Part shown: positions 5,598 through 50,061 of the stretch, piece after piece
How the letters are laid out: each line of letters opens with the position of its first letter
Position numbering within the stretch: the first letter of the stretch is position 1
Assembly (NCBI RefSeq): GCF_027213645.1
Contig: NZ_JAPWGL010000001.1
Span: forward strand, 1,178,001-1,242,000
Origin: Pedobacter rhodius
GTDB taxonomy: Bacteria > Bacteroidota > Bacteroidia > Sphingobacteriales > Sphingobacteriaceae
Direction: 5' to 3'
Length of the DNA stretch: 64,000 bases
Translations under genes and position numbers: made by a program
Notes under the pieces: model-generated
Databases searched by the model: none
What the model was told of the DNA's origin: nothing
What the model saw: the letters and a program-made list of their open reading frames with translations, nothing else

Positions 5598-6596
5598 ATG
5601 AACATTCTATCACCTCTTAAAATATATGTTGCAATGCTTTTAAGCATTGCAACATTGAATCTGAAAGCGCAAACAGACCCTCATTTCTCTCAATATTATG
5701 CTTATCCCTTATGGTTAAATCCGGCATTAACAGGCGTTATTGATGGCGATTACCGGGCTTCAGTTAATTTTAAGCAACAATGGGGTGCAATTTCGAATGC
5801 TTATTTAACCGGTGGTGCCTCTTTCGATGTGGCACCCACTAAGAACTTTGCTTTCGGGGCTACAATTTTAAACCAGAATGCCGGAGAACTTAATTTCAAT
5901 TACCTGACGGCTTTGGTTTCTGGTTCTTACCGGTTAAGGTTTGGTGCGACAGGATTGCAGATGGTCAGTTTTGGTTTGCAGGCCGGGTTTGTAAACCGAA
6001 GTTTCGATTTATCGCAGGGCAGGTTTGGCAACCAGTTTAACCCGGTTGAAGGTTATAATGGTGGTACTTCGAGCGGCGAAAGTTTTTCATCAACTTCCTC
6101 GTTTGTGCCTGATATTAATGCCGGGATAATGTATTTTGATGGTAATCCTAATCAAAATGTAAATGTATTTCTTGGTGCAAGTGCTGCACATTTAAACAGG
6201 CCTATAGAACGTTTCACTGACAACAGTACACGTACGCCGATTCGTTTTACCGCACACGGCGGTGCCAGAATAAGGGCTTCGGAAATGGTCGATATTGTAC
6301 CAAATGCCCTGGTTATGTATCAGGGAAATACTGACGAGATTTCGGTTGGCGCTTACGCACAGCTAATGGTTAATAACCAATCTAATATTTTATTTGGTGG
6401 TAATTACCGCGTTAAAGATGCCTCTATTGCTTTTGTCGGTTTGCAATTTAAAAACATGGTTTTCGGTTTAAGCTATGATGTAAATACCTCCACATTGAGG
6501 AGGGCATCAAATAGCGGTGGTGGTTTAGAACTATCCATCTCGCTTATTGGCCGGAACGGCATAATCGGTCCTAACTTTTTCTGTCCACGTTTATAA
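5598..6596 (+). CDS. PorP/SprF family type IX secretion system outer membrane protein
   Basis: A 332-residue protein with a signal peptide ending near LNLKAQ, followed at once by the family's hallmark DPHFSQYYAYPLWLNPALTG and then alternating beta strands typical of a 14-strand outer membrane barrel. PorP/SprF proteins are needed for secretion or surface anchoring of cognate type B CTD substrates; in Flavobacterium SprF serves SprB. The gene sits between the giant CTD adhesin (36 bp upstream) and the OmpA-like protein (9 bp downstream), so it is very likely the dedicated partner of the adhesin in one operon. Assignment to the family is firm; the pairing is inferred from order. Confidence 0.93.
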   Translation: MNILSPLKIYVAMLLSIATLNLKAQTDPHFSQYYAYPLWLNPALTGVIDGDYRASVNFKQQWGAISNAYLTGGASFDVAPTKNFAFGATILNQNAGELNFNYLTALVSGSYRLRFGATGLQMVSFGLQAGFVNRSFDLSQGRFGNQFNPVEGYNGGTSSGESFSSTSSFVPDINAGIMYFDGNPNQNVNVFLGASAAHLNRPIERFTDNSTRTPIRFTAHGGARIRASEMVDIVPNALVMYQGNTDEISVGAYAQLMVNNQSNILFGGNYRVKDASIAFVGLQFKNMVFGLSYDVNTSTLRRASNSGGGLELSISLIGRNGIIGPNFFCPRL

Positions 6597-40140: not shown

Positions 40141-42354
40141 ATGAATAAATTTTCTGTTGACCTGACAAATTGTGATAAAGAACCTATTCATATTCCGGGC
40201 AAAATACAATCACACGGGTTTTTAATCGCAGTCGATATATCGACTTATAACATATCTTATATCAGTGAGAATGCGTTACATTTTTTAAATTTTTCTTCCA
40301 AAGATTTACTGGATAAGCCTTTAGCTGTCGTAAACAATTTAATAAAAACGCAAGCTGTAGAATTTGATATTGAGGACTTATTGAAACTCGGGATTATCAG
40401 AAGAAGTTTTGATGCCATTTCGCCTTATCCCATCGAAATCAATGAACGCCCGTTTTACCTGATAATTTCACGATCGCAAAATGAATGGCTTCTTGAATTT
40501 GAACCGGTTACCTTGCAATACGATATTCAGAGTTCAATAGGACGATCGGCATCGGCCATGTTACAAGGCAGGACTGTTGCTACACTATTAAAGGGTGCTG
40601 CCGCTGAAGTTAAAAAACTTATAAATTATGATAGAATTATGATTTATAAATTTTTAGATGACGGGCACGGCGAAGTGGTTGCGGAAGAAAAAGAAGCTGA
40701 TTTAGAGCCTTTTTTTGGTTTGCATTATCCCGCATCAGATATTCCAAAGCAGGCAAGAGAACTATATAAATTAAATTTAAACAGATTAATAGCAGATGTA
40801 AATACGGAAGATTCGCCGATAATTACATTTAAAGAAAACCAACCTTTAGATTTAACGAACGCGGGTTTGAGGGCAGTGTCGCCAATACACATCCAGTACT
40901 TGAAAAATATGGGCGTTCACTCCAGTTTTAGTATTTCATTAATTTCGCGCGGTGAGTTATGGGGATTAATTGCCTGCCATAACTATAGCCCGAAATTTAT
41001 TGATTATAAAGCACGTGAAGGTTCTAAATTAATCGGACAAATTCTTTCATCAGCATTAGAATACCGCCAGAACGAAGAAGATTCTGAAATCGTAAAGCAA
41101 TTTAAAGATACAGCCGGCATTCTGGCTGAACATTTAAGTCGCGATAAATATTTAGTTGATGCATTAACCGGCCATAAAAAAAATATTCTGGACGTAACTA
41201 AGGCAACTGGTGTAGCTTTAATATTTGAAAATGAATTACATACAATTGGCAGTGTTCCTTCAAATGATGAAATAAATGCTTTGGCAGAATGGCTGGGATC
41301 GTCAAATGATGAATCTGTTTATTATACGCATAGATTATCAGAGATATTTCATCCCGCGAAAAAATATAAAGACATTGCTTCTGGTATTTTATCATGCTCG
41401 TTAAGCAAAGAGCTGAATGAAATGATAATCTGGTTTAAGCCAGAACAAATCTCAACAGTAAAGTGGGCCGGTAATCCGGATAAGCCGGTAACACCATCAG
41501 AGAATGGCCTGTTGAGTTTATCACCAAGAAAATCATTCGAAATCTGGTCGCAGGTTGTAAGTAATACTTCTGAAAAATGGTTGCCCGAGGAAATAACTTC
41601 GGTGTTACGCATTCGTGAAATTATTATTACTGATGTTAACAAAAAAGCAAACGAAATCAGGTTGCTGAATGAGAAATTACAGGCAGCTTACGAAGAGCTT
41701 GATACGTTTAGCTACACCATTTCCCATGATTTAAGAACGCCACTAACATCTATAAAAACCTACGCGGAGCTAATGCTAAAAAATAAAAGCATTGATGAGC
41801 ATGGTAAAAAGATGTTGGGTAGGATTTTAACAGGCGCGGATAAAATGAATTTTCTGATCAAAGAAATTCTCAATTTAGCAAGGGTTGGTCGTTCTGAGAT
41901 AAATCTTGAAACAGTTGATATGCAATCTTTATTAAAAGAAATAATTGCAGAAGTATGGACCGCTTATAAAGCAGACAAGGTCGAGCTGGTTTTAGGACGA
42001 TTGCCAGATTTAAAGGGAGATAAAACACTGATAGGACAGGTGTTTACGAACTTGTTAACCAATAGTGTAAAGTACTCTTCAATGGTTGATAAACCCAAAA
42101 TTGAAGTTTCTGCGTATATAGATGCAGGAGAAATTATATACTATGTTAAAGATAATGGTATAGGAATTGATAACCGTTATTATGACAGGGTTTTTGAGCT
42201 TTTTAAGCGCATGGACAATGTTAAAGACATTGATGGAACAGGAGTAGGGTTGGCTATTGTAAAACGTGTAGTTGAAAAACACCATGGAAGGGTTTGGTTT
42301 GAAAGCAAATTAAATGCAGGCTCTACTTTTTACCTAGCCTTTAAAAACAAATAA
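40141..42354 (+). CDS. bphP: Bacteriophytochrome sensor histidine kinase
   Basis: 737 residues: PAS (about 1-115), GAF (about 130-300), PHY (about 310-490), dimerisation/phosphoacceptor domain (about 515-585) and ATPase domain (about 625-735). Cys11 in TNCDKEPIHIPGKIQSHGF is the conserved biliverdin attachment site. The GAF domain has HYPASDIPKQAREL and SPIHIQYLKNMGVHSS with the chromophore-pocket histidine. The phosphoacceptor is His529 in TISHDLRTPLTS; the ATP lid has NGIGIDNRYYDRVFELF and GTGVGLAIV. It should sense red/far-red light and phosphorylate the receiver encoded next door. A gene for its response regulator begins 1 bp after the stop. Confidence 0.96.
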   Translation: MNKFSVDLTNCDKEPIHIPGKIQSHGFLIAVDISTYNISYISENALHFLNFSSKDLLDKPLAVVNNLIKTQAVEFDIEDLLKLGIIRRSFDAISPYPIEINERPFYLIISRSQNEWLLEFEPVTLQYDIQSSIGRSASAMLQGRTVATLLKGAAAEVKKLINYDRIMIYKFLDDGHGEVVAEEKEADLEPFFGLHYPASDIPKQARELYKLNLNRLIADVNTEDSPIITFKENQPLDLTNAGLRAVSPIHIQYLKNMGVHSSFSISLISRGELWGLIACHNYSPKFIDYKAREGSKLIGQILSSALEYRQNEEDSEIVKQFKDTAGILAEHLSRDKYLVDALTGHKKNILDVTKATGVALIFENELHTIGSVPSNDEINALAEWLGSSNDESVYYTHRLSEIFHPAKKYKDIASGILSCSLSKELNEMIIWFKPEQISTVKWAGNPDKPVTPSENGLLSLSPRKSFEIWSQVVSNTSEKWLPEEITSVLRIREIIITDVNKKANEIRLLNEKLQAAYEELDTFSYTISHDLRTPLTSIKTYAELMLKNKSIDEHGKKMLGRILTGADKMNFLIKEILNLARVGRSEINLETVDMQSLLKEIIAEVWTAYKADKVELVLGRLPDLKGDKTLIGQVFTNLLTNSVKYSSMVDKPKIEVSAYIDAGEIIYYVKDNGIGIDNRYYDRVFELFKRMDNVKDIDGTGVGLAIVKRVVEKHHGRVWFESKLNAGSTFYLAFKNK

Positions 42355-42355
42355 A

Positions 42356-42775
42356 ATGAAAACGCCGGATATATTTTACGTTGAGGATGATATAGACTAT
42401 GCATTTTTTATGCAAAGTGCCGTACAGGAAGTTAAAGATACTTTAAATTTAACAATTGTTGAAGATGGAACTGAGGCTTTAGTAAGGTTACAAAACTTTG
42501 CGGAAAGCAAAACCAAGCCTAAACTAATTTTGTTAGATTTAAATTTACCAGGTTTATCTGGTTTAGATTTACTGAAATTTATAAAAGAAATTCCTTACCT
42601 GAAAACCATTCCTGTTATTTTGTTTTCGACTTCTGATAATCCGGACGACGTAAAAGCAGCTATCGAATTTGGCGCAAATGCTTATTTAACGAAACCGAAT
42701 GGTTATGATAACCTGGTAAAATGTGTGCATTCGGTACACGATTTTTGGTTTAACCACCACCTTCGGTTAAATTAA
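42356..42775 (+). CDS. Rcp1-type response regulator of the phytochrome
   Basis: 139 residues, one receiver domain with E10/D11/D12, phospho-acceptor D61 in LILLDLNLPGLSG, a STSD switch and K113 in YLTKPNG. The length and the C-terminal extension DFWFNHHLRLN match the small Rcp1-like regulators that follow phytochrome kinase genes. It starts 1 bp after the bphP stop, so the two are co-transcribed. There is no output domain; the downstream target is unknown. Confidence 0.93.
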   Translation: MKTPDIFYVEDDIDYAFFMQSAVQEVKDTLNLTIVEDGTEALVRLQNFAESKTKPKLILLDLNLPGLSGLDLLKFIKEIPYLKTIPVILFSTSDNPDDVKAAIEFGANAYLTKPNGYDNLVKCVHSVHDFWFNHHLRLN

Positions 42776-42793
42776 CTTTAAATATAGTACATG

Positions 42794-42828
42794 AGATTCG
42801 GGTTGAAAAATCCGAATCTTTTGTTTTT
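42794..42828 (+). terminator. Hairpin terminator between the response regulator and heme oxygenase genes
   Basis: AGATTCGG / CCGAATCT perfect 8-bp stem with a 10-nt loop followed by TTTTGTTTTT. It could end the bphP transcript or attenuate it, leaving bphO with partial read-through or its own promoter. Confidence 0.75.
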
Positions 42829-42850
42829 AACAACTTTTTAGATAAAAATA

Positions 42851-43435
42851 ATGATTGCCAATTTATTGAGAACCGAAACTGCCGATAAACATAAAGAATT
42901 AGAGACTTTAATGTTTGTAAATGAAATTATGAACAATTCTCTGCGCATTACCGAATATAAAAAACTACTTACGGTTAACTACCTTATTCATCAAAAACTA
43001 GAAAACAAATTAGCCAATATGCTGGATACCGATGTTGCAGAAAAGTTGCAAATGAACACCAGATTTAAACTGGCTGCTTTGGAAAAAGATTTGGATTACT
43101 GGAAAATAGATCCATTTACATTACCAGGCTTAGACTTTGAATTATTTTTACCCGAAAAAAATAATGCTGCAGTTTTGGGCGCTTTATATGTATTAGAAGG
43201 GGCTACACTAGGTGGAAATGTAATTAAAAAACATATTCTGGCAAATCCTGATTTCATTAATCATCAGGATGGTTTAAATTATTATGGGGTTTATGGAACA
43301 GAATTAGGTGCTAAATGGAAAACTTTTGTTGCGGTATTAAATGAAAGCGTTACAGAAGCAGATTACGGGCTTTGTATTAATAGCGCGAATCAAACCTTTA
43401 ATAACTTAATAAACTTGTCTAAACAGTATTGTTAA
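42851..43435 (+). CDS. bphO: Biliverdin-producing heme oxygenase (BphO-like)
   Basis: 194 residues of the bacterial heme oxygenase fold: the N-terminal helix LRTETADKHKELETL with proximal ligand His14, and the distal helix GALYVLEGATLGGNVIKKHI with the Gly-rich kink. The enzyme opens heme to biliverdin IX, CO and iron; biliverdin is the chromophore of the phytochrome whose gene lies 0.5 kb upstream. Presence here makes the light-sensing unit self-sufficient. Located in the cytoplasm. Confidence 0.9.
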   Translation: MIANLLRTETADKHKELETLMFVNEIMNNSLRITEYKKLLTVNYLIHQKLENKLANMLDTDVAEKLQMNTRFKLAALEKDLDYWKIDPFTLPGLDFELFLPEKNNAAVLGALYVLEGATLGGNVIKKHILANPDFINHQDGLNYYGVYGTELGAKWKTFVAVLNESVTEADYGLCINSANQTFNNLINLSKQYC

Positions 43436-46590: not shown

Positions 46591-46953
46591 ATGAAAACTG
46601 ACCTAGTAGAAATTTTTCAAACCATTAGAGCTAGCTTGCAGCCTTATGCAACCCGGGGATATACTGTTCATGAAAATTCTGAAACAGGATATGATTTATA
46701 CAGCGAAAAAAATATAGAAGTTGATGGTAAAAATATAACCGAAAGATTTTTTGCCGGTATTTATATTAGTGGCAATGAAGTTGAAGTTAACCTTAATACA
46801 ACTGATATTGATACTGCTAATCAAAATCTAAGTGATTTAGGTAGCGATAAATCAGGCTTAAAAATTACCGAACTTGATCATAATAAGTTAAAGGAAGTTG
46901 AAACCCTAATAGAAATTATCCATACTAACTTTAAAGAAAAGGAATGGATTTAA
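46591..46953 (+). CDS. Hypothetical 120-residue protein
   Basis: A soluble acidic alpha/beta protein with no signal peptide. Visible features are a central beta sheet (RFFAGIYISGNEVEVNLNT) and a C-terminal helix (HNKLKEVETLIEIIHTNFKE). I do not recognise the family. It is followed 104 bp later by the Mom-like gene. Confidence 0.6.
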   Translation: MKTDLVEIFQTIRASLQPYATRGYTVHENSETGYDLYSEKNIEVDGKNITERFFAGIYISGNEVEVNLNTTDIDTANQNLSDLGSDKSGLKITELDHNKLKEVETLIEIIHTNFKEKEWI

Positions 46954-47057: not shown

Positions 47058-47819
47058 ATGTGGCAAAACCATTTTCTGACTGCGCTGGCAGAACAGGGAA
47101 TGGTTTTTGAATATAAAGCTGGTTTTTATCATACGGTGTCGTTTATTGCGTATAACCTAACCATCAATTTAGTTAGCCTGGACAATAATTTTTCACCCGA
47201 CGTATTGATTGAGCTTCAGGAAGCTTCAATAAATCAGGGTAAAAAACTTATTCATTTGTGGGAAGATGTCTGGATATCCAAATCGGAGCAGGTTTTGTTC
47301 AGGTTGAAATCCTTGCTGAATAAAAATGAAAGGATTCATGGAAGAAAAACTAAAATCAGAAAGATTACCAAACCTGAAGCTGATGTGTTTTTAAATGAAA
47401 ATCATTTGCAAGGTTCCGTTACAGCACGGTATAAATTTGGATTATTTATTTCAGAAGAATTAGTCGCAGTAGCTACTTTTTCAGCGCTTCGCAGAATGAA
47501 TTATACGGAAGACTATAAATCTATAGAATTAATACGTTTCGCGGTGAAAGGCGGCTTCTCTATAACAGGTGGTTTAAGTAAGTTAATTAACAATCTGAAA
47601 GAACAGTTAAGTCCAAACGACATGATGACTTATGCCGATAGGGATTGGTCGGGCGGTGAAGCTTATTTAAAACTTGGTTTTGATAAAGTTGACGTTTTAA
47701 ACCCACAATATTTTCTTTTAGATAATAATCTTAACAGAAAGATAGACAGGACTTGTTTAAAAAACAATGCTGTACACGTGTATAATACGGGAAGTTTAAA
47801 ATTTATTCTGAAGTTTTAA
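47058..47819 (+). CDS. Endonuclease-like / GNAT-like (phage Mom-related) fusion protein
   Basis: 253 residues from the ATG at 47058; a TTG start 14 codons upstream is possible. The N-terminal part (about 1-100) has a small nuclease-like pattern with strands and the motif KLIHLWEDVWISKSEQVLF, as in Vsr/homing-type endonucleases. The C-terminal part (about 100-240) matches phage proteins with a GNAT-like core: NENHLQGSVTARYKFGLF, LVAVATFSALRRM, ELIRFAVKGGFSITGG and MTYADRDWSGGEAYLKLGF, which recalls the Mom DNA-modification family. It lies 1 bp upstream of miaA and is probably co-transcribed. The role is inferred; alternatives are a domesticated phage gene or a solo nuclease. Confidence 0.6.
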   Translation: MWQNHFLTALAEQGMVFEYKAGFYHTVSFIAYNLTINLVSLDNNFSPDVLIELQEASINQGKKLIHLWEDVWISKSEQVLFRLKSLLNKNERIHGRKTKIRKITKPEADVFLNENHLQGSVTARYKFGLFISEELVAVATFSALRRMNYTEDYKSIELIRFAVKGGFSITGGLSKLINNLKEQLSPNDMMTYADRDWSGGEAYLKLGFDKVDVLNPQYFLLDNNLNRKIDRTCLKNNAVHVYNTGSLKFILKF

Positions 47820-47820
47820 T

Positions 47821-48738
47821 ATGTCCGATAAACCGCTTTTGATTATTTTAGGCGCAACGGCTTCCGGTAAAACGAAACTTGCCGTGCAAGTTGCTGATGC
47901 GCTTAATGCCGAAATTATCAGTGCGGATAGCCGACAGGTATTCAGAAAAATGGATATCGGTACAGGAAAAGATTTAGCAGAATACAATATAAACGGGAAA
48001 ACTATTCCCCATCATTTAATTAACATTCTCGAACCCGGCGAAAGGTATCATGTAGATGCATTTAAAAATGATTTTTATAATGCTTACCAGTCAATAACCG
48101 ATAAAGATAAATTTTCAATCCTCTGTGGCGGCACAGGAATGTACATACATAGCCTGTTACAAAATCAACGCTACACAGCTGTTCCTGTGCATTCCGGTTT
48201 GCGCACAGCCCTTGATTCTTTAACTAAAGAAGAATTGATAAACCGGTTGAAAGACTATCCGGAAGAATTGTCCAGACACGTGGATTTTAATGCAAAGAAA
48301 AGGTTAATCAGGGCGATAGAAATTGCAGAATACCTCAGCTGCAATGAGCTAGCAGACGTTGACAGACCAAAAATTAATTCCCTGGTTTTTGGTTTAAAAA
48401 ACAAAGTTGAACAAACAAGATATAATATCCTTAGCCGACTAGAATACAGATTGGGGGACGGTATGATTGAAGAAGTTGAGGATTTATTAAATAAAGGGGT
48501 AAGTAAGGAAATCTTAACTTTTTATGGGCTGGAATATAAATTTATCGTGGCTTATTTATCGGGCGATTTAAATTATGACGAGCTTAAATTAAAATTAGGC
48601 ATTGCCATCTGCCAGTACGCCAAACGACAAAATACATTTTTCAGAAAGATGGAAAAGGACGGTGTAATAATTAACTGGCTGGATGCTTCCGAACCACTTG
48701 ATAGTTTAAAGCAACAGATTTTAGAAAAAGTTTTTTAA
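47821..48738 (+). CDS. miaA: tRNA dimethylallyltransferase MiaA
   Basis: 305 residues. P-loop GATASGKT at 11-18, the catalytic-site motif SADSRQVFRKMDIGTGKD, and the GGTGMYIHSLL loop are all diagnostic. MiaA adds the dimethylallyl group to N6 of A37 in tRNAs reading UNN codons. The C-terminal RRNA-type zinc region of longer homologues is absent, as is common in Bacteroidota. It follows the Mom-like gene by 1 bp, an unusual partner for a housekeeping tRNA modification gene. Confidence 0.94.
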   Translation: MSDKPLLIILGATASGKTKLAVQVADALNAEIISADSRQVFRKMDIGTGKDLAEYNINGKTIPHHLINILEPGERYHVDAFKNDFYNAYQSITDKDKFSILCGGTGMYIHSLLQNQRYTAVPVHSGLRTALDSLTKEELINRLKDYPEELSRHVDFNAKKRLIRAIEIAEYLSCNELADVDRPKINSLVFGLKNKVEQTRYNILSRLEYRLGDGMIEEVEDLLNKGVSKEILTFYGLEYKFIVAYLSGDLNYDELKLKLGIAICQYAKRQNTFFRKMEKDGVIINWLDASEPLDSLKQQILEKVF

Positions 48739-48867: not shown

Positions 48868-49365
48868 ATGAAAACAATTACTAAAATCATGGCTACCTCA
48901 GCAGCTGCAGTAGCTTTATTTTTTTCTACAAATGTACAAGCTCAAAAATTAGGTGTTGGTGTTACTGCTGGTATCCCAACAAGTGATGCCTACAGTGTTG
49001 CACTTGGTGCAGATTTACGTTATCAATTTGATATCGATAAACAATTATCAATTCCGGTAACAGCAGGGTACACCAATTTATCTGTGAAAGATGAATTTGG
49101 TGGTGGCAGTTTTGGTTATATTCCAGTTAAAGTTGGTGCCAAATATTTCTTCAATACATCAGGTTCGGGTGTTTATGGTTTAGCTGAACTTGGTGCAGGT
49201 TTCGGAACTAAAGACGGAAGCGGAACATCATTTGTATATTCTCCTGCCATCGGTTATGCCTGGAGTAACGGATTAGATTTAGGTGTTAAATACGAAGGCT
49301 TATCGCAAAATGGCGGAAGCACAGGTTTCTTTGGTTTGCGTTTAGCGTATGGTTTCTCTCTATAA
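48868..49365 (+). CDS. Small outer membrane beta-barrel protein, paralogue A
   Basis: 165 residues with signal peptide (AVALFFSTNVQAQ, about 25) and an eight-strand-type barrel ending in GFFGLRLAYGFSL with a C-terminal hydrophobic residue. It has the start MKTITKI in common with the next gene and the same overall plan (Y-rich strands, GYAWSNGLDLGVKYEG against GYEWNNGLEIGAKYEG). The two are tandem paralogues. Function of such OmpW/OprF-like small barrels is unknown; they may be stress-induced. Confidence 0.85.
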   Translation: MKTITKIMATSAAAVALFFSTNVQAQKLGVGVTAGIPTSDAYSVALGADLRYQFDIDKQLSIPVTAGYTNLSVKDEFGGGSFGYIPVKVGAKYFFNTSGSGVYGLAELGAGFGTKDGSGTSFVYSPAIGYAWSNGLDLGVKYEGLSQNGGSTGFFGLRLAYGFSL

Positions 49366-49384
49366 TTGAAATAGAAGATGATTT

Positions 49385-49413
49385 AAAGCCTCCGAAATTC
49401 GGGGGCTTTTTTT
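49385..49413 (+). terminator. Terminator of paralogue A
   Basis: AAAGCCTCCGAA / TTCGGGGGCTTT stem followed by seven T. Nearly the same hairpin ends paralogue B. Confidence 0.9.
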
Positions 49414-49515
49414 ATTTTCAGAAATTTCAAAAAAAATAATTTTTAGAAATCTGTTTTCTCTTAAAGTTCGTATGTATAATCAAACCTTAATTAAATAACT
49501 TAAATACATCCAAAA

Positions 49516-50061
49516 ATGAAAACAATTACTAAAATTTTTGCGGTCGCTTCAGCCTTAGCGATTTTTGCAACATCAAATCTTAAAGCGCAAACCATGAGTA
49601 CAACTACAATGTCTACCAATAGCGGTATGGCTTTTAAAGTAGGCATTGGTGCACAATACGGCTTTTTTCCGGAGAAATCTGAAATGGACTACGGTTATGG
49701 TGCTGATTTAAGATTACAATATGATTTAAGCCCGGCTGTAGCAATTACCGCATCTGGTGGTTACACTAAACTCAAATGGAAAGGAAGTCCTTTAAATTTT
49801 GAATTTATTCCATTAGTTGGTGGTGTTAAAGCATTTGTAATCGACAGAATGTTTTTAACAGGCGGCGCAGGTACAGGTTTAGCACTTAAAGATGGTGCCA
49901 ATATGAACTTTATTTACACAGGCGGATTAGGTTACGAATGGAACAATGGTCTTGAAATTGGTGCCAAATACGAAGGTTATGTAAACAATAGCTCATCTGA
50001 TTTATATTTTATGAAAACCGGTCAGTTTGCTTTGAGACTTGGCTATAATTTCAAATTATAA
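49516..50061 (+). CDS. Small outer membrane beta-barrel protein, paralogue B
   Basis: 181 residues with signal peptide (ATSNLKAQ, about 24), a short Thr/Ser/Met-rich linker and an eight-strand-type barrel ending in ALRLGYNFKL. It resembles paralogue A over the barrel with a 15-residue insertion at the N-terminus. The first 20 bases of the two coding regions are the same, and each is followed by a matching terminator, so gene and terminator were duplicated together. Confidence 0.85.
   Translation: MKTITKIFAVASALAIFATSNLKAQTMSTTTMSTNSGMAFKVGIGAQYGFFPEKSEMDYGYGADLRLQYDLSPAVAITASGGYTKLKWKGSPLNFEFIPLVGGVKAFVIDRMFLTGGAGTGLALKDGANMNFIYTGGLGYEWNNGLEIGAKYEGYVNNSSSDLYFMKTGQFALRLGYNFKL

Follow-up and report, generated by a model that had tools for sequence, protein, structure and literature searches.

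A Mom-related gene of probable phage descent is paired with a second, divergent miaA gene in Bacteroidota

In the 64,000-nucleotide stretch of the Pedobacter rhodius genome analysed here (hereafter called the window), a gene whose product is related to the phage DNA-modification protein Mom lies directly upstream of a miaA gene, and genomic comparison establishes that these two genes form a pair. The miaA gene of this pair is not the canonical miaA of the genome: sequence comparison identifies it, for the first time here, as a second and divergent paralog, which we call miaA2. The Mom-related gene is no stray phage gene; it is resident in many Bacteroidota and is probably a descendant of phage proteins in which a REase-type domain is fused to a Mom-like domain. 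The combination of a decayed nuclease half, a seemingly intact base-modifying half, and a second miaA hints at joint nucleic-acid modification. In several Bacteroidota families, a fold that protects phage DNA appears to have been turned into the resident companion of a second enzyme of the tRNA-modification type.

The open reading frame of the Mom-related gene extends from the ATG at 47058 to the TAA at 47817-47819, a single base follows, and miaA2 starts with the ATG at 47821. The two genes are a tightly packed pair on the same strand, with 1 bp between them. The product of the second frame scores 191 bits against the NCBIfam miaA model TIGR00174, above the cut-off of 148.65, and the preliminary description of the window, which had reported two frames 1 bp apart with miaA as the second, is confirmed in this respect. 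The features of the pair are listed in Table 1.

Table 1. Coordinates, within the window, of the Mom-related gene, miaA2 and associated features
Feature	Position	Strand	Description or basis
Mom-related gene, 253 aa	47058..47819	+	REase-like domain without the active-site motif, then Mom-like GNAT domain
N-terminal part, residues 1-93	47058..47336	+	Phage REase domain remnant; ExD..ExNG..WH-type motif lost
Mom-like GNAT domain, residues 94-253	47337..47816	+	Alignment core and structure comparison
miaA2, divergent second MiaA paralog, 305 aa	47821..48738	+	TIGR00174, tree, signature
MiaA2 signature GKD, residues 49-51 (AKP in MiaA1)	47965..47973	+	
MiaA2 signature R210 (M in MiaA1)	48448..48450	+	
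MiaA2 signature GLEY, residues 236-239 (GY in MiaA1)	48526..48537	+	
120-aa gene upstream of the pair	46591..46953	+	Neighbour conserved in the genus only; outside the pair proper

Relatives of the Mom-related protein occur in 388 phage records, and the plasmid records searched for such relatives gave no match. Two phage families that bear the names homing endonuclease and HNH endonuclease are matched over their C-terminal part, phrog_3339 by residues 56-231 (E 1.1e-47) and phrog_559 by residues 58-231 (E 3.3e-38), while residues 93-195 match the Mom-like phrog_1384 (2.8e-5). The window protein corresponds to the last 250 residues or so of five named phage proteins, found with this protein alone as the query and without any motif pattern, in which a REase-like part is followed by a Mom-like part; two of the five match Pfam Vsr and four match REase_MTES_1575, all weakly and below the cut-off. 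The AlphaFold model matches BFVD entries of such phage proteins over its whole length (best E 2.3e-25, TM 0.88 by query length). The re-alignment to PDB structures barely covers the N-terminal part, and the fold of this part therefore rests on the match to the phage models. REase-Mom fusions, combining a restriction part with a protecting part, are described for jumbo phages in PMC7824862.

Does the N-terminal part retain the features of a nuclease? The E-x-N-G-x-x-W-H motif is present in all five named phage proteins and, as judged from the alignment, absent from the window protein. In the 102-row alignment, the nuclease columns carry E in 49, D in 50, E in 50, H in 49 and K in 50 of the 50 viral rows; the corresponding window residues are N33, T35, S46, L50 and L53, and these columns are variable in the 52 non-viral rows (the window protein, 50 proteins from named genome contigs and one IMG/VR row). 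A direct count found the active-site motif, which in its intact form is the hallmark of the Hef-type homing endonucleases, in none of the 68 bacterial rows and none of the 81 rows of the related-locus search, and in 78 of the 80 viral rows (69 by a stricter motif), the viral figure being biased upward by the two patterns used to fetch these rows, one of which contains part of the nuclease motif. The joint MAFFT alignment placed the nuclease columns poorly, and the nuclease counts were taken from the other alignments and from the direct motif count. A WEDxW segment persists throughout, or almost throughout, the 52 non-viral rows and is rarer in the wider set (W72 in 40/68). In a quick tree with SH-aLRT support only, rooted on the phage rows and computed without one broken gene (L217, see below), a single branch with support 100 separates the bacterial from the phage rows.

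The window protein thus shares its domain order and its Mom-like core residues with the phage REase-Mom fusions (the Hef/homing endonucleases of phrog_3339 and phrog_559), which, however, keep the nuclease motif and a long N-terminal extension, neither of which it has. Also unlike these fusions, the gene is a single resident copy paired with miaA2: one match per genome was found in 241 of the 243 positive genomes of the order (the match is in two pieces in G375 and G420), which, together with the lack of a plasmid match, differs from the distribution of a mobile element. It seems that in a bacterial lineage the nuclease domain decayed while the Mom-like domain was retained, and the transfer would have run from phage to bacterium. 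The earlier wording “nuclease-like” is accordingly right for ancestry and fold, with the active-site motif missing, and the suggestion of a domesticated phage gene survives through the kinship of the protein with phage Mom and with phage homing endonucleases.

Next, we examined the GNAT domain, which the preliminary description had related to Mom. The AlphaFold model of the Mom-related protein has a mean pLDDT of 96.7 and a pTM of 0.92. The closest solved structure by Foldseek is that of phage Mu Mom (8bv8, E 3.7e-7), with GNAT acetyltransferases next. VIA-align superposes the model on Mom with Z 13.1 and rmsd 3.6 over 158 aligned residues, and Naa50, RimI and other protein acetyltransferases reach Z values of up to 13.5, tied with Mom since differences below 1 are ties. 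These ties identify the fold as GNAT, and the Mom assignment therefore rests on Foldseek together with profile comparison, in which hhalign of our alignment A4 (51 of the 81 bacterial/IMG related-locus rows and 50 of the 80 viral rows) with a nine-member Mom alignment gave 97.2% and E 3.5e-11 over 173 columns. The Pfam Mom model PF25680 scores 15.1 bits with the window protein, below the cut-off of 27.1, and matches eight members of the 16-member alignment A1 at E up to 1 (best 2.5e-4). Against the solved structures, the window protein sequence alone gave no match, and the A4 profile matched glyphosate acetyltransferase only (E 0.027). In view of these mixed outcomes, we use the name Mom-related for the protein and refrain from classing it as a Mom.

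The core of the domain—R96, H116, F141, R145, E157, R160, G171, G172, K175, Y192, D194, F208, G245 and K248—is kept in 62-68 of the 68 bacterial rows at each position (68 for H116, 67 for R96 and for E157, 66 for D194, 65 for R160), and Q118 (35/68) and Y203 (33/68) are poorly kept in this wider set. In the 102-row alignment, the same residues, with Y203 in the place of K248, are kept in at least 45 of the 50 viral rows and in all 52 others. Seventeen columns are invariant in the nine Mom proteins. Seven of these Mom residues (H58, E108, L109, R111, D149, G156 and Y159) align to identical residues in the window protein; G72 aligns to G128 and S146 to T191; Y59, G81, A161 and N163 differ; and M1, G168, H183 and Y217 fall outside the alignment or in uncertain stretches of it. 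Mom S124, which is mutated in a structure titled inactive, aligns in a gapped region to T170, a position that is variable in both groups. The window protein accordingly has the GNAT-type domain and the seven identical residues in common with Mu Mom, and differs from it in lacking S124, Y59, G81, A161 and N163, in its additional N-terminal domain, and in the pairing of its gene with miaA2. On this comparison, the Mom-like site is mostly conserved, while the nuclease site of the preliminary description is lost, and the GNAT domain is predicted to be active. In Microbacterium phage Appa (L348, 195-928), a Mom-like gene precedes a tRNA-Gly gene that is encoded on the opposite strand, which is of interest because a glycine-derived donor, glycyl-CoA, has been proposed for Mom in PMC7824862.

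The window genome contains two miaA matches, one of 299 bits (G000:C1:392240-393085) and the 191-bit window gene, and their products, MiaA1 and MiaA2, are 28% identical. The partner first described as a tRNA dimethylallyltransferase thus does belong to the MiaA family, as its second, divergent paralog and not as the canonical enzyme of the genome. In a quick tree of 123 MiaA sequences (rows shorter than 200 aa or with stops were left out), 40 canonical copies are separated from 83 second-class copies with SH-aLRT 100. Among the 53 MiaA2 proteins from genomes with the Mom-related gene, 51 fall into one subclade (support 90), which has one member from a genome without the gene, and the remaining two are from genomes of family f34. 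The GKD/R/GLEY signature is found in 83/83 MiaA2, where it replaces the AKP, M and GY fixed in the canonical enzyme (39/40 MiaA1, with DKP in one). The catalytic core (GxTAxGKT, D36, R206 and KRQ) is common to both classes and kept in 94-100% of the 83 MiaA2 rows. Since the core is kept and the signature differences are fixed, MiaA2 would seem to be an active prenyltransferase whose recognition has changed. MiaA prenylates N6 of A37 in the tRNA anticodon loop, and two MiaA proteins are numbered in the protein databases for some Bacteroidota.

MiaA2 is also present in 31 sampled genomes that lack the Mom-related gene, from families that include f33, f34 and f57. It is therefore likely to serve an independent function, extended by a step that the Mom-related enzyme contributes. 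Where no Mom-related gene is linked to it, MiaA2 has no substitute partner in common: among 42 loci centred on MiaA2, of which some come from genomes that do carry the Mom-related gene, the largest neighbour cluster accounts for 11 (L407 has no indexed gene). Nine Mom-related queries gave no match in the miaA-centred loci L351-L433 (flanks of 1.5-4 kb; 34 of the loci are best-scoring copies). By eye, in six f34 loci without the Mom-related gene (L397, L405, L414, L419, L420 and L424), MiaA2 is followed by a helicase-like protein of the UvrD/AddA type, of about 1050 aa.

The Mom-related gene is present in 36/36 sampled genomes of the genus, the window genome included, and in 243/400 sampled genomes of the order, 44/395 of the class sample and 7/395 of the phylum sample (gene and miaA copies per genome were counted from the best five or six candidates, and scoring of all candidates gave the same counts in 40 genomes). 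The pair adjoins on one strand in 30/30 genus loci, including that of the window, within a kept order of a metallo-beta-lactamase gene (27 of the 30 loci), the 120-aa gene (30), the Mom-related gene (30) and miaA (30). In all 80 named loci, the best 80 of 152 found and 77 of them from Pedobacter, miaA is adjacent. Outside the genus, miaA lies downstream, on the same strand and within 1.5 kb, in 42 of 60 loci, and in none on the opposite strand (the set leaves out the positive genomes G420, G612 and G737). In these 42 linked loci, the gap is -25 to +30 bp in 23, as measured to the nearest in-frame ATG, and 106-352 bp in four, while in 15 miaA is about 1.2-1.45 kb away, mostly behind one inserted gene. 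The overlaps of 4, 8, 11, 14 and 17 bases seen in different families suggest translational coupling. The most frequent neighbour cluster is miaA, in 40 of the 58 loci with an indexed gene (L195 and L199 have none), and the next reaches 14/58. The partnership with miaA read from the window is thus upheld by a conserved neighbourhood, and it fits together with the domesticated-gene reading.

In the other 18 of the 60 loci, miaA is absent from the fetched flank, which in most cases spans about 6 kb and in G444 128 bases, and the unlinked Mom-related genes of 15 loci have no neighbour in common. By eye, in three g44 loci (L203, L205 and L208), the unlinked gene is directly downstream of MutS-like and RNA-methyltransferase-like genes; the genomes are about 2 Mb in size, with two miaA matches each. 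In locus L217 (G375, g25; 6001-6527), the Mom-related gene is broken in two, with an uninterrupted miaA2 frame of 310 aa downstream, perhaps a recent loss of the Mom-related gene that left MiaA2 in place.

The association of the two genes extends beyond their linkage. In the class sample, at least two miaA matches were found in 41 of the 44 genomes with the Mom-related gene versus 40 of the 351 without it (Fisher p 2e-29). This p-value is not to be taken literally, as the genomes are related and the matches in some of these 40 are fragments of one miaA (G043, G048, G429 and G545). In the fuller sample of family f1, at least two miaA matches were found in 21/21 genomes with the gene, unlinked cases included, versus 0/20 without it, these 20 being the ones listed of 157 genomes without the gene. 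The association agrees within seven families: in f1, f12, f23, f28, f41 and f68, every genome that carries the gene shows two miaA matches and every genome that lacks it one or none, and in f11 the counts are 13/14 versus 0/1. Neither f34, with at least two matches in both groups but for one genome, nor f60, with one in both, is informative, and f39 runs against the association, as its sole genome with the gene (G481) has no miaA match while the others have one or more. The 3/44 genomes with the gene and fewer than two matches are G481 (none), G563 (one) and G760, whose sole match is MiaA2. Over 18 genomes, only a weak correlation links the distances of the Mom-related protein to those of MiaA2 (r 0.33); with MiaA1 controlled for, the partial r is 0.29 (permutation p 0.02). 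The Mom-related protein and MiaA1 give r 0.29.

How might the two proteins act together? We give an even chance to the reading, drawn from sequence and neighbourhood, that the phage REase-Mom descendant and MiaA2 work in one pathway for an extra adenosine modification in RNA, probably in the tRNA anticodon loop. The gene would derive from a phage REase-Mom protein that lost its nuclease motif and retained its GNAT transferase domain. MiaA2 would prenylate an RNA adenosine, probably one situated in the anticodon loop of certain tRNAs, and the Mom-related enzyme would then add or extend an acyl-type group on the prenylated base or on one next to it; RNA, and tRNA in particular, is the presumed substrate, and which step comes first and by what chemistry is likewise proposed. 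Ordinary i6A37 and ms2i6A37 can be accounted for by MiaA1 and MiaB. MiaA2 accompanies both of these proteins, and the simplest account is therefore a second RNA modification pathway. Replacement of MiaB by the pair was considered and rejected, as MiaB scores above the cut-off in 40/40 genomes (20 with and 20 without the Mom-related gene). That this amounts to an undescribed two-enzyme hypermodification pathway of Bacteroidota, placing a prenyl- and/or acyl-derived group on an adenosine of tRNA or another RNA, is a tentative proposal, to which we give somewhat less than an even chance.

Other readings of the pair were weighed against this RNA pathway. The domain might modify chromosomal adenines, as phage Mom does, with the miaA2 link reflecting shared regulation only; the first solved fold in Foldseek is a DNA modifier, and the phage relatives carry the REase-type fusion described for jumbo phages in PMC7824862. 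We regard this as unlikely, because the fused nuclease motif is gone from the bacterial proteins and in one family after another the gene accompanies a tRNA-type enzyme, even where unlinked. A non-catalytic role, in which the GNAT fold is a scaffold that binds nucleic acid and brings MiaA2 to RNA, would suit the variable counterpart of Mom S124, and a dead REase domain could conceivably bind nucleic acid; the polar core of H116, E157, R160 and D194, kept in 65-68 of 68 rows, exceeds what a scaffold would appear to need, which makes such a role quite unlikely. The alignment of Naa50, RimI and others as well as Mom by Z would also allow a GNAT-type protein acyltransferase acting on MiaA2 or on a translation protein. 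Mom is nonetheless close by both Foldseek and profile, and the relatives found by sequence are nucleic-acid proteins of phages, so that we hold this decidedly unlikely.

A defensive function, with the pair modifying tRNA anticodon loops and thereby blocking their cleavage by phage or toxin nucleases, would accord with the phage relatives, with the protective role of Mom on DNA and the site of MiaA action in the anticodon loop, and with the patchy occurrence of the gene in the class. Within the genus, however, every sampled genome carries it, unlike a patchy defence gene, and the Mom-related protein matched none of the PADLOC families at E up to 0.01, by which a known defence system was rejected; we consider defence improbable. 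(MiaA2 gave weak matches to mad8, 0.0029, and PDC-S01, 0.0066, which extend no further than its first 59 residues.) Finally, the Mom-related gene could be an old neighbour of miaA2 without any functional tie, since vertical inheritance can preserve neighbours and 18 of the 60 loci are unlinked. This neutral explanation is most improbable, as other neighbours are not preserved over the same distances and the co-occurrence persists where the genes are unlinked.

If the RNA pathway proposed here is correct, a new modified nucleoside, for which a major phylum has yet to be searched, would be made by a domesticated phage DNA-modification fold; the unexplained second MiaA would gain a use, and phage DNA modification would be directly linked to tRNA modification. 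A literature search, which left most subscription journals beyond its reach, found, among the papers listed, none on the pairing, on Mom-like chromosomal genes or on a second MiaA in Bacteroidota, and the term Bacteroid is absent from the main text of PMC6071968, on the evolution of IPT.

Elsewhere in the window, the ORF list shows by eye a phytochrome-like sensor kinase, a response regulator and a heme-oxygenase-like gene in a row at 40141-43435. At 48868-50061, two adjoining genes encode similar secreted proteins of 165 and 181 aa, which both start with MKTITKI and have similar ends.
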